Shown here piece after piece: positions 9,146-38,920 of a stretch of DNA of 55,438 nucleotides (its first letter is position 1; the number at the start of each line of letters is the position of its first letter). The DNA lies in assembly GCA_035316325.1 (NCBI GenBank), contig DATHJB010000069.1:1-55438 (forward strand), in the 5' to 3' direction. The stretch comes from Acidimicrobiales bacterium. Lineage in GTDB: Bacteria > Actinomycetota > Acidimicrobiia > Acidimicrobiales > VFJN01. The translations under genes were made by a program, and so were the position numbers. A model generated the notes under the pieces. The model saw only the letters and a program-made list of their open reading frames with translations. It ran no database searches and was not told where the DNA came from.

Positions 9146-10441
<1,296 letters not shown>

Positions 10442-18604: not shown

Positions 18605-18820
18605 CTACATCGCGTCCGCCAGGTCGTCGAACTCGCCGGCCTTGCAGCCGTTCACCCAGGCGGCCAGCTCGGACCGGGTGAACTCGATGGTCCCGGCGTC
18701 GGGGCGGTGGCTGTTGCGCACGAGGATCAGGTCGCCGACCTCGCACACCTCCACGCAGTCGCCGTTCTGCCCGCTGTACGTCGATTTTCGCCAGCTGGGC
18801 CTATCAGGATGGTCGCTCAT
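18605..18820 (-). CDS. DUF397 domain protein
   Basis: 71 residues from ATG 18820. It carries the whole DUF397 pattern: WRKSTYSGQNGDCVEV, then VRNSHRPDAGTIEFTRSELAAWVNGCKAGEFD. DUF397 proteins are small actinobacterial partners of XRE regulators (the WhiJ/AbaA-type pairs), several linked to development or antibiotic control. The start overlaps the stop of the XRE gene by 4 bp (ATGA), so both are translated together and probably interact. Confidence 0.92.
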   Translation of the reverse strand: MSDHPDRPSWRKSTYSGQNGDCVEVCEVGDLILVRNSHRPDAGTIEFTRSELAAWVNGCKAGEFDDLADAM

Positions 18821-19665
18821 TGGTATCGCTCCTCGGCGATGTTGCGGATGAGGTCGACCGACTCCGTGAGCGAGAGGGAGTGCTCGCACAGGTGGTCGAA
18901 CACCTCGACGTGGGCGTCGACGGCGTGGGGCCCCTCCAGGTACCGGACCCCGGTCCGGTCGGTGACGCAGGCCATCTGAGCCGTCGTCGCTCCGGGCGAC
19001 GCCAGCAGCGTGAACGCCCCGAACGAGGCCGCGTGCACGCCCGCCACCAGCGGCAGGATCCGCAGGTCGACGTTGGGTTGCTGCGCCATCGCCGCCAGGT
19101 GGGCGAGTTGCGCGGCCATCACCACCGGCCCGCCCGTGAGGCGGAGGAGCACCGACTCGTCCAGCACGACCGCCAGCTGCAACGGATCGGGCTTCCGTAT
19201 CAACACGCCCTGGCGGGCCAGGCGCAGCTCGACGCGCCGCGCCACCCACTCGTCGCTCGCCGGGCGCGGCCCCACCCGCTCGACCGCCCGGGCGTAGGCC
19301 GGCGTCTGCAGCAGGGCGTGCACCGTCATCGGCTGGAACGCCCACAGATGGGAGGCACCCTGCTCCAGCGAGGCGTACAGCGTCAGCCACGTCGGCACGG
19401 CCTGACCGCTCGGCGCCGCGACGGCACCCCCGCCCTCGGCCTCGCCGTTGGCGTTGGCGTTGGCGTTGAGGTAGGAGTCGACCTCCACCAGCGACACGTC
19501 GAGCCGTTCGGCGAGCCGCGGCCGGAACCCGACCCGCGGCGTCGACAGGCCGCGCTCCCACTCCCGGTAGGTCGACGTGGCCACGCCGATCGAGAGCGCG
19601 AGCTGCTCCTGGGTCAGACCCTGTTGCTCCCGCCGTGCCTTGAGCCGGTGGCGTGCCATCGCCAT
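18817..19665 (-). CDS. XRE family HTH regulator with DUF5753 domain
   Basis: 282 residues; ATG 19665 follows GGGAGGA. The HTH is at the N-terminus: LKARREQQGLTQEQLALSIGVATSTYREWERG. A linker contains Asn-Ala repeats (NANANANGEAEGGG) coded by a 6-bp tandem repeat. The rest fits DUF5753, the ligand- or partner-binding domain of these regulators: the leading LEQGASHLWAFQPMTVHALLQTPAYARAV and the PLVAGVHAASFGAFTLL core. It should repress or activate targets together with the DUF397 partner encoded immediately after it; the signal is unknown. Confidence 0.92.
   Translation of the reverse strand: MAMARHRLKARREQQGLTQEQLALSIGVATSTYREWERGLSTPRVGFRPRLAERLDVSLVEVDSYLNANANANGEAEGGGAVAAPSGQAVPTWLTLYASLEQGASHLWAFQPMTVHALLQTPAYARAVERVGPRPASDEWVARRVELRLARQGVLIRKPDPLQLAVVLDESVLLRLTGGPVVMAAQLAHLAAMAQQPNVDLRILPLVAGVHAASFGAFTLLASPGATTAQMACVTDRTGVRYLEGPHAVDAHVEVFDHLCEHSLSLTESVDLIRNIAEERYQ
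19447..19468. repeat. 6-bp tandem repeat in the XRE gene
   Basis: GTTGGC is repeated more than three times in a row (19447-19468). It encodes the Asn-Ala repeats between HTH and DUF5753 and, being in multiples of three, can change linker length without breaking the frame. Confidence 0.75.
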
Positions 19666-20113: not shown

Positions 20114-20175
20114 GCGTCGACCGGGAGCCGGTCGGGCCGTGGCTCTCCCACGGCCCGAACCGGTGCCTCCCGGAA

Positions 20176-20223
20176 TCAGTCGGTGATCAGTCGGTGATCA
20201 GTCGGTGATCAGCGGGTGATCAG
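20176..20223. repeat. 11-bp tandem repeat covering a stop codon
   Basis: TCAGTCGGTGA occurs at 20176-20186, 20187-20197 and 20198-20208, then TCAGCGGGTGA 20209-20219 and a partial TCAG 20220-20223. Each unit joint creates the palindrome TGATCA. The stop codon of the polyester-hydrolase-like gene on the minus strand is at the array edge (20220-20222). Confidence 0.85.
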
Positions 20224-21083
20224 AACGGGCAGGTGCTGCGGACCTCGTTGAGCGTCCCGCCGGCGACGGGCCTGGAGGCGCCGCACGTCCACGGGTCGTA
20301 GCGGGTGTCGCCGTCGAGCCAGCGCTTGAAGAACGCCACCGCGTACTTGCCCGGTAGCCCCGAGCCGAACGCCGGCGAGTTGGCGCAGAAGTGGTCACCA
20401 CCCGCCAACGAGATGTACTGCTTCTCGCCGGCGAGCGAGTTGTACATCGGCGAGGCGTGCGAGGCGACCGCAGCGACGGCGTCGTTCTGGCAGGCGATCA
20501 CCAGGGCCGGCTTGTTGACCGTCGAGAAGCTGCTGCTGCCGTTCCACGGCGCCAGCGGCACGGCGACGTCGACGTCGGGGTCGTCCCGCAGCGAGATCAG
20601 CGACCCGCCGCCGCCCATCGAGTGGCCGGCGACCCCTTGGCGGGTGCCGTCGACCTTCCCGAACACCGGGCTCCCCTGGGTGTTGCCCTGGTTGACGACG
20701 TAGTCGAGGGCCTGGCGCTGCTCGGTGGAGCGCTGCTCCGGCTGGATGAACGAGTTGGTGGTGTTGATGGTGATCGCCACGAAGCCGTGCGACGCCAGGC
20801 GCGGGCCCCACGGGGCGATGGCGTCCTGTGCCGACAGGAAGCCGGGGGAGATCGAGATGACGGCGAACGGCCCTTCCGACGTGTTCGCCGGGTAGTAGAG
20901 CGTGCCGCCGCCGAAGCCGGCCGAGCTGGGAACGGCCACCGAGCCGACGGCGTACGGCCCCGACGAGGCCATGAGGACGGCCTCCGTCGGCTCGGGCCCG
21001 CGCCAGTCGCAGGCCGCGAGCACGAGCGTCAGGACCAGCCCTACGGCCGCGCGACGCCACGGGATGCTGCGAATCGAGATCAC
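20220..21083 (-). CDS. Lipoprotein of the PET-hydrolase/cutinase-like family
   Basis: 287 residues from GTG 21083, preceded by GGGGGG. A lipoprotein signal (IPWRRAAVGLVLTLVLAAC) puts the lipidated Cys at 25, so the enzyme should be anchored outside the membrane. The body follows Ideonella PETase closely: RGPEPTEA at the start, GPRLASHGFVAITI, GKVDGTRQGVAGHSMGGGGS with Ser155, Asp201 in CQNDAV, His231 in GGDHFCANS, and DTRYDPWTC. Trp180 in APWNGS is kept. Cys198/Cys233 match the extra active-site disulfide of PETase (type II), and Cys267/Cys285 the C-terminal one. His154 and Phe232 replace PETase Trp159 and Ser238, as in cutinases. The substrate is likely a polyester or lipid ester; PET activity is only inferred. 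Confidence 0.88.
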   Translation of the reverse strand: MISIRSIPWRRAAVGLVLTLVLAACDWRGPEPTEAVLMASSGPYAVGSVAVPSSAGFGGGTLYYPANTSEGPFAVISISPGFLSAQDAIAPWGPRLASHGFVAITINTTNSFIQPEQRSTEQRQALDYVVNQGNTQGSPVFGKVDGTRQGVAGHSMGGGGSLISLRDDPDVDVAVPLAPWNGSSSFSTVNKPALVIACQNDAVAAVASHASPMYNSLAGEKQYISLAGGDHFCANSPAFGSGLPGKYAVAFFKRWLDGDTRYDPWTCGASRPVAGGTLNEVRSTCPF

Positions 21084-21142
21084 TGTGTGCCCCCCTAGGC
21101 AATGGAGCCGCCCAGTCAGGACGGCCACCTGCACCAGGTCAT

Positions 21143-21201
21143 AACCCGACATGAGTCAGTAAGTCAACGCTTTGCGTTCCATCCAGTCAGTAAAACCCGA
21201 C
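21143..21201. promoter_or_regulatory. Paired repeats upstream of the polyester-hydrolase-like gene
   Basis: AACCCGAC at 21143-21150 and 21194-21201, and AGTCAGTAA at 21154-21162 and 21185-21193, so the two motifs occur in mirrored order but same orientation. The cluster sits 60-118 bp upstream of GTG 21083, in a locally less GC-rich region, and looks like a regulator-binding region. Confidence 0.4.
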
Positions 21202-36533: not shown

Positions 36534-38846
36534 CTAACGGCCTCCGTTGTCCTGGTCGGCGACGAAGGAGGCCACCCATGAGAGCGTCGAGTTCCAGTTG
36601 ATCGTGATCTCGTTGGTGGACCACGACTCGATGTCGTCGATGTAGCAGAACTGCGGCGTCGCCGGGCAGTCGCTCAGCAGGGCCTGGGCCACGGGATCCT
36701 GGATGCCCGAGTTCGGGCCGCCGGCGATGAACCCGACGGGCGGGTTGGGCAGCTCGGCGTTGAGCTGATGGGCGTACATGCGGCTGTGCTGGTTCTGCGA
36801 GAACACGTCGCCGTAGCCCGTGACGTAGGAGATGTTCAGCGCGTTGCGTCCGAGCAGGAAGTCCATCCCCTCGATCACCGCGCCCTGGTACTCCTCGTCG
36901 CCCGTGAGGTCGTAGGCGGTGGCGATCACCACGAGGTTGTTGAGGATCTGGCTCGTGGAGCCCCAGGCCCAGAGGTTGTCGGCCGGCGCGTACGGCTGGC
37001 CCCACGGCTGCTGGCCCTGGAGTGAGAGCAGGGCATCGGCGCCGTCGACCACCGAGCGGCCCACCCGCTGACGGTCGGGCAGGTGGTTGGGCACGGTGGC
37101 CAGGTCGAGCCGGCCGAGCGCGGCCACATGGCCCCAGTCGAAGCCGTCGACGTCGAACACGTCGGCCCGGTGCAGCGGCGACGTCAGCACCGCGTCCTTG
37201 AAGCGCCGTTCGCCGGTGGTGACGTAGAGCTCGGCCGCGGCCCAGTAGGTCTCGTCGGTGACGTTCGTGTCGTCGTAGGGCCCACCGCCCGACGCCCCGT
37301 CAGCGACCGGTGCGTACAGCGGCGGGTTGGCGAGCGCGGCCGACCACGCCGTGCGGGCCGCGCCCAGCAGCCGGTCGGAGAACGCGCGGTCGTAGGGCTT
37401 GAAGATCCGCGCCCCCTGGGCGGCCACGGCTGCCAGGTTGAGGGTGGCGGCGGTCGACGGGCGATGCAGCTCGCGCACCATGGGGTCGGCTGCCGGGTCG
37501 AGCGGCAGGCCGGTCCACGCGCTGTCGTGGACCTTGTGGTGGACCATGCCCGCCAACGGCTCGCCGGCCGGCACCTGCATGGTCAGCATCCACTCCAGCT
37601 CCCAGCGGGCCTCGTCGAGGACGTCGGGCACCCGGTTGCCCCGCTCGGGGACCCGCAGGGTGCGGTCGCCCAGAGCGCCCCGGTCCGCGCTGCGGGCGGT
37701 GCCGTTGCGCTCCCAGGTGCTCATCAGCTGCGCCACGGAGATCCCGCCGTTGACCACGTACTTGCCGTGGTCGCCGGCGTCGTACCACCCGCCGACGACG
37801 TCGAGGGCGTAGTCACAGGTCCACGGCTCGCCGTAGACGGGCAGCGACACCTCGGGTGGCTGGCAATCCACGTCGAGGTCGCCCCGGTTCGGAGCGACGC
37901 CCACGTGGCCGGCGGCGCGGGAGTAGGCGTCGTCGCCGACGATGGTGCCGTCGATCGGCGTGCCGCTGCGCTGCGGGTAGTACACCGACAGGGCGTCGAC
38001 CCGCAAGCGCTCGTAGGCGTCGGAGGCGATGTCGAACGGGTGGCTGGTCTCGCCGTCGGCGACCAGCGTGTAGCCGCGGTCCGACCGGGTGACGTCGCCG
38101 AAGTCGATCGTGTGCAGGTTCAGGCCCGACGTGCGGTCGACGCCGGCCGGGCGGGTGCGGCCCCGCGCGACGACGTGGCCCCTCTGGTTCTCGAGCGCCC
38201 ACGGCAGCCGGTCGGTCGCCTCGGTGACGAGGGTGGCGCCCTTGGGGCCGTGCGGCAGGTAGCCGACCTGGTTCACGCGCACGCGTGGCCCGGTGTCGGG
38301 CACGTACGGCTCGGGCTCGGCTCCGCCGCGGAGCGAGACGTTGTCGAGGCAGACCGTGTGCGCGGTGCTGGCGCCGCCCAGCTGGAAGGCCACCTGGCCG
38401 TCCGGTGTCGAGGTGGGCTGCGTGAACGTGAAGGTGTAGGTCTGCAGCGACTCGCCGACGGTCGGGCTCTCGGCGAAGTAGGCGTCGAAGGGCGCCACCG
38501 CCAGGCCCACGACGGCTCGCAGGTTGGCGGTGGGCGTCGACGAGGCGTCGAACGACAGCTGGTAGGTGACGCCGGCTTCGAGCGCGATGTCGTTCTGGCC
38601 GACGATGGCGTCCCAGGGGTTGGCGAGCCCACCCGGGACGTCGGTGCAGAACACGCCGTCGGCGACGGTGCCGGCATCGGGGGACGAGAACCACGGAGCC
38701 ATCCCGGCCGAGAAGTCGCCGTTGACCACCTGCTCGGCCCCGACCTCCTGGGCCCGCACACCGGGCATGGCCCACACCGCCCCGACGAGCAGCGCCAGCA
38801 GCGCTCCGGCCGACCTCCGGACTCCGGTGCGACGAGAAGCCTGCAT
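36534..38846 (-). CDS. Secreted GH9 endoglucanase with CBM and Ig-like domains
   Basis: 770 residues from ATG 38846, behind GGAGGGGG. Signal peptide [20 protein letters not shown]; then a CBM4/9-like domain ([16 protein letters not shown] to the DNVSLRG strand, about 38-175); a CelD_N Ig-like domain ([18 protein letters not shown]); and the GH9 catalytic domain. [15 protein letters not shown] carries the base Asp356/Asp359, [10 protein letters not shown] the conserved His and [12 protein letters not shown] the proton donor Glu746. GH9 enzymes hydrolyse cellulose with inversion. A CebR/CelR-like operator lies 75 bp upstream. Confidence 0.94.
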
Positions 38847-38920
38847 CGGGACCCCCTCCCCCCTGGCACTGCACCCAGGAAATCGCTTCACCGTCGACAG
38901 TACCCCCGGCACAGTGCCTA

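Follow-up and report, generated by a model that had tools for sequence, protein, structure and literature searches.

The PETase-like gene and its surroundings

The window, i.e. the whole stretch of 55,438 nucleotides that was analysed, comes from contig DATHJB010000069.1 of an Acidimicrobiales bacterium (assembly GCA_035316325.1) and carries on its minus strand, at 20220..21083, a gene for a 287-residue alpha/beta hydrolase of the PETase-like family PF12740. Translation places the start of this frame at the GTG codon at 21083, and since a Shine-Dalgarno-like AGGGGGG (21090..21096, minus strand) lies 6 nt upstream, this codon was preferred to an ATG at 21152. At the other end of the gene, an 11-base tandem repeat (ATCAGTCGGTG, 4.5 copies, 20175-20223) reaches into the stop codon. 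The protein matches the PF12740 profile (PETase, PET hydrolase-like) with 293.9 bits (E 1.4e-87; residues 28-286 on profile positions 9-263), exceeding the curated cut-off of 28 bits. Its score of 251 bits against the NCBIfam equivalog for bis(hydroxyethyl) terephthalate hydrolase lies below the cut-off of 520, and its best sequence match in the PDB is 7cwq (E 2.5e-77).

The neighbours of the gene encode a rhomboid protease, a large LuxR-type regulator and, at 18605-19665, an HTH-DUF5753 protein adjoining a DUF397 protein, a pair known mainly from actinobacteria; no PET or terephthalate gene was found among these neighbours. The window also encodes a subtilase that carries an inhibitor I9 propeptide domain (9146-10441) and a GH9 cellulase with CelD_N and carbohydrate-binding CBM_4_9 domains (36534-38912). 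Contamination of the assembly was considered and rejected, given the DUF5753/DUF397 neighbours and the G+C content of the gene (0.711), which is close to that of the window (0.717) and of stretches of other contigs (0.71-0.74). The genome (6.4 Mb, 97% complete) holds three close PF12740 proteins, namely the one described here and two type I paralogs on contigs 80 and 110, both with unusual residues: Leu119 and Phe214 in the first and Arg238 in the second.

Active site, cysteine pairs and predicted lipid anchor

The residue states of the protein were read by alignment in IsPETase numbering, and the residue numbers of the original prediction (Cys25, His154, Ser155, Cys198, Asp201, His231, Phe232, Cys233, Cys267 and Cys285) proved exact. 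The catalytic triad is formed by Ser155, Asp201 (20481..20483) and His231, aligned on PETase positions 160, 206 and 237; these and the following coordinates all refer to the minus strand. The nucleophile elbow GHSMG, part of the longer GHSMGGGG, contains His154-Ser155-Met156 (20616..20624), with His154 at PETase position 159, and the triad histidine is followed directly by the aromatic residue of position 238 and by a cysteine of position 239 (His231-Phe232-Cys233, 20385..20393). Thus, subsite II consists of His159/Phe238, the cutinase-type pair that had been proposed for this enzyme. Positions 214 and 218 are occupied by His and Met, which is nearer to type I, and the Phe/Trp aromatic clamp is retained in the alignment.

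Both cysteine pairs of PETase, also part of the original prediction, are present. Cys198 (20490..20492) aligns with PETase Cys203 and has Cys233 as its partner, at positions where the type I references have Ala at both 203 and 239; Cys267 and Cys285, in the C-terminal stretch at 20229..20285, align on 273/289 and are invariant in the alignment of relatives. We infer from these positions that Cys198-Cys233 and Cys267-Cys285 would form disulfides. The beta8-alpha6 stretch HFCANSPAFGSGLPGKYAVAF (20331..20393) is an extended loop of type II length by alignment, and the stretch after the catalytic His231 counts 20 residues, exactly as in IsPETase and in agreement with the PETase-length loop expected, vs 17 in LCC and the Thermobifida cutinase. 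An AlphaFold2 model built from a 15-sequence alignment of relatives (mean pLDDT 87.4, pTM 0.86) found its closest solved structures in IsPETase and its variants, with Z about 39 and rmsd 1.4-1.8 Å over 248-250 residues, including the IsPETase W159H/S238F mutant 7OSB (Z 38.9, 1.4 Å). The superposition on IsPETase that had been suggested as a check therefore gives a matching PETase-like fold, as far as the predicted model goes.

Residues 1-25 (21009..21083) form a predicted lipoprotein-type signal peptide with the lipobox LAAC and Cys25. They match the G+LPP lipoprotein pattern, so that the lipobox noticed originally is present and Cys25 is probably lipidated, tethering the enzyme to the cell. 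This predicted anchor is the least ordinary aspect of the protein, its actinobacterial branch being also less usual. No description of a lipid-anchored PET hydrolase was found in the literature, whose coverage was incomplete, so that absence is unproven; lipoprotein signals have been noted on plastic-degrader candidates selected through metagenomic annotation (PMC10997104). A lipid-anchored form, if true, would mean that a polyester hydrolase is naturally displayed on whole cells.

Taken together, these features make the protein probably an actinobacterial member of the type II PETase lineage that hydrolyses polyesters and is predicted to carry a lipid anchor; its natural substrate would probably be short esters or a polyester resembling cutin or suberin. 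According to the proposed mechanism, the Sec system would export the protein, Cys25 would receive the lipid and the enzyme would sit on the outer face of the membrane. There Ser155, activated by His231 and Asp201, would attack ester bonds in polymers or oligomers that lie in an open cleft, with Phe82-Met156-Trp180 lining subsite I and His154/Phe232 lining subsite II, and the two disulfides would make the active-site loop and the C-terminus more rigid. Hydrolysis of PET or of polyesters in general is a candidate function suggested by these features; PET may be a weak side activity.

The strongest competing explanation, which we consider rather unlikely, is that of a lipid-anchored esterase acting on small or cell-envelope esters and not on polymers. 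Tethering to the membrane under the cell wall would presumably limit access to bulk polymer, and the order holds four other relatives with lipobox-like starts, in which the residues of subsite II vary. Against this explanation, the open PETase-like cleft and the Phe/Trp clamp are retained here, and the characterised relatives in the PETase family act on polymers.

Position among type I and type II enzymes

Joo et al. (2018, PMC5785972) defined type II enzymes by an extra disulfide (Cys203/Cys239) and an extended beta8-alpha6 loop, which exceeds that of type I by three residues, and type IIa by the same disulfide and loop together with Phe238 or Tyr238. The protein of the window combines the GxSxG triad, the 203/239 and 273/289 cysteine pairs and the long loop with a grouping among type II enzymes in the tree, and is thus a new actinobacterial member of the type II PETase-like enzymes; type I, which lacks the 203/239 pair and the extended loop, does not accommodate it. 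Phe232 agrees with type IIa and not with type IIb, where Ser (or Thr) stands at 238, and the Trp159 that is usual in type IIa, without being part of its definition, is replaced by His154.

A maximum-likelihood tree, built from 35 proteins with CtPL of Caldimonas taiwanensis outside the sample, puts the protein inside the type II clade when all columns are used (support 99/99). As the cysteine and loop columns could themselves drive this grouping, the tree was rebuilt without them, and the phylogeny proposed originally as a check again gave type II: the clade including the protein is supported at 100/98, with L034, a protein from a different family within the order, as its sister (96/83). In this trait-free tree the protein stands outside the seven rows holding the IIa enzymes (98/90), a placement to be read with CtPL unsampled and with a long branch (0.7-1.2), which makes its exact place inside or beside IIa and IIb unsure. 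Hence, the protein can be called IIa by residue 238, its nesting within the IIa clade being unsure.

These trees also bear on the explanation that the protein is a type I actinobacterial cutinase that kept its own His/Phe and gained the extra cysteine pair and the longer loop convergently. The equivalents of His159, Phe238 and His214 are indeed type I states, the genome holds two type I paralogs, and in the AU test on all columns joining the protein to type I was not rejected (p 0.07). However, the same grouping was rejected on the trait-free tree (AU p 0.004), grouping with the genome's own paralogs was rejected with all columns kept (p 0.0002), and the Cys203/239 pair requires a minimum of one change on the trait-free tree, which makes convergence improbable. 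The minimum is two changes each for the loop and the lipobox, at least five for position 159 and at least nine for position 238 (F/Y or not). The few changes needed for the cysteine pair and the loop and the many for 159 and 238 suggest that the disulfide and the loop are marks of the lineage and that the two subsite positions are labile. Within the type II lineage favoured here, the His154/Phe232 pair would thus be type I-like either by retention or by regain, at positions that change often in the family.

Of the four other lipobox-like starts in the order, three (L015, L030 and L031) fit the G+LPP pattern and the fourth, L038, is weaker (GTAC) and fails the strict pattern; on the trait-free tree these four proteins form a separate deep group (94/87). 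A single group uniting them with the protein of the window was tried; the trait-free tree rejects it (p 0.005), and the full tree does not (p 0.09). The members of this group are diverse. L030 and L031, encoded about 5 kb apart on contig 2 of one genome (G017), combine a lipobox and the type II cysteine pair with His/Phe or His/Tyr and a short loop of type I; L015 (genome G047) has a lipobox, Ile159, Ser238, Trp87 and a 23-residue loop stretch. The start of L038 (genome G300), ..TACDWRGPAPT, resembles the AACDWRGPEPT of the window protein, and L038 combines Trp159 and Asn238 with a loop of short length and an insertion ahead of the His loop.

The original prediction held that the mixture of type II disulfides with a cutinase-type His/Phe pair was otherwise known from an artificial PETase double mutant. 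This proved wrong, since two natural cases, CtPL and L034, show that the mixture is not solely artificial. In a review (PMC11219463), CtPL is listed as a natural type IIa enzyme with His/Phe, and published accounts (PMC10991172, PMC11219463) describe engineered CtPL variants that hydrolyse PET and available structures, among them that of variant 8IAN. Matches at E 1e-25 or better occur in 13 out of 397 genomes of the order, and among the matches in these 13 genomes His/Phe together with the cysteine pair and the long loop occurs in the protein of the window and L034 only. A scan of contigs for relatives yielded a single one, a gammaproteobacterial Trp/Phe protein resembling type IIa. Other natural 159/238 pairs beside the cysteine pair are Phe/Asn (L055, L056), Trp/Phe (L033) and, in the proteins with lipobox-like starts, His/Phe and His/Tyr (L030, L031), Ile/Ser (L015) and Trp/Asn (L038). 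L055 and L056, which belong to the type II lineage and to the same class as L033, have in Phe159/Asn238 a pair that is absent from the published types used for comparison.

We tentatively suggest that the order may hold its own actinobacterial type II branch beside the proteobacterial one, with the disulfide, the loop and His/Phe and with one member as a surface lipoprotein, and that membrane-tethered hydrolysis of polyesters may have arisen two or more times in the family. How the 159/238 pair affects PET activity is debated: W159H and S238F lowered activity according to Joo et al. (2018, PMC5785972), vs the improved activity of the W159H/S238F double mutant reported by Austin et al., as cited in PMC11219463. 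The natural His/Phe enzymes (the protein of the window, L034 and CtPL), together with those carrying Phe/Asn, Trp/Asn and Ile/Ser, constitute an evolutionary test set for this question.

Substrate and comparison with known enzymes

The genome encodes, outside the neighbourhood of the PETase-like gene, one or more proteins of the tannase/feruloyl-esterase family, a match that does not imply MHETase identity; no PdxA-family gene of the terephthalate pathway was found in the genome. The tannase family is the family of MHETase and the PdxA family that of TphB. The GH9 cellulase and the tannase-family protein without PdxA fit a degrader of plant matter, in which a cutin-like polyester would be a plausible substrate, and the natural substrate is more likely cutin-like or a short ester than PET. 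That the protein is a dedicated PET-degrading enzyme, part of an Ideonella-like PET/terephthalate utilisation system, is very improbable in spite of the close fold match to IsPETase and the tannase-family protein, in view of the missing PdxA-family gene, the rhomboid, LuxR-type and DUF5753/DUF397 neighbours and the lower PET activity to which Joo et al. (PMC5785972) tied Phe238 and His159.

The lipid-anchored type II polyester hydrolase favoured here can be set beside several named enzymes. IsPETase of Ideonella sakaiensis (type IIb) shares its fold, triad, both cysteine pairs and loop length at 46-47% identity, whereas wild-type IsPETase has Trp159/Ser238 and Ser214 and is without a lipobox; in the W159H/S238F mutant 7OSB, the 159/238 pair is identical to that of the window protein. 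The IIb-like Burkholderiales cutinase 7CWQ is 48% identical and differs in Trp159/Ser238 and in not being actinobacterial. The type IIa enzymes 8OTU, LipIAF5-2/PET2 (7EC8) and PE-H (6SBN) share the two cysteine pairs, the extended loop and an aromatic residue at 238, and differ in Trp159. CtPL, compared through its published description, is reported as a natural type IIa enzyme with the same His/Phe at subsite II; it is a Caldimonas enzyme, described as thermophilic, and the accounts consulted mention no lipid anchor. Finally, L034 shares 51% identity, His159, Phe238, the cysteine pair and the 20-residue loop with the protein described here, from which it differs in starting with an ordinary secretion signal and in being extended at its C-terminus.
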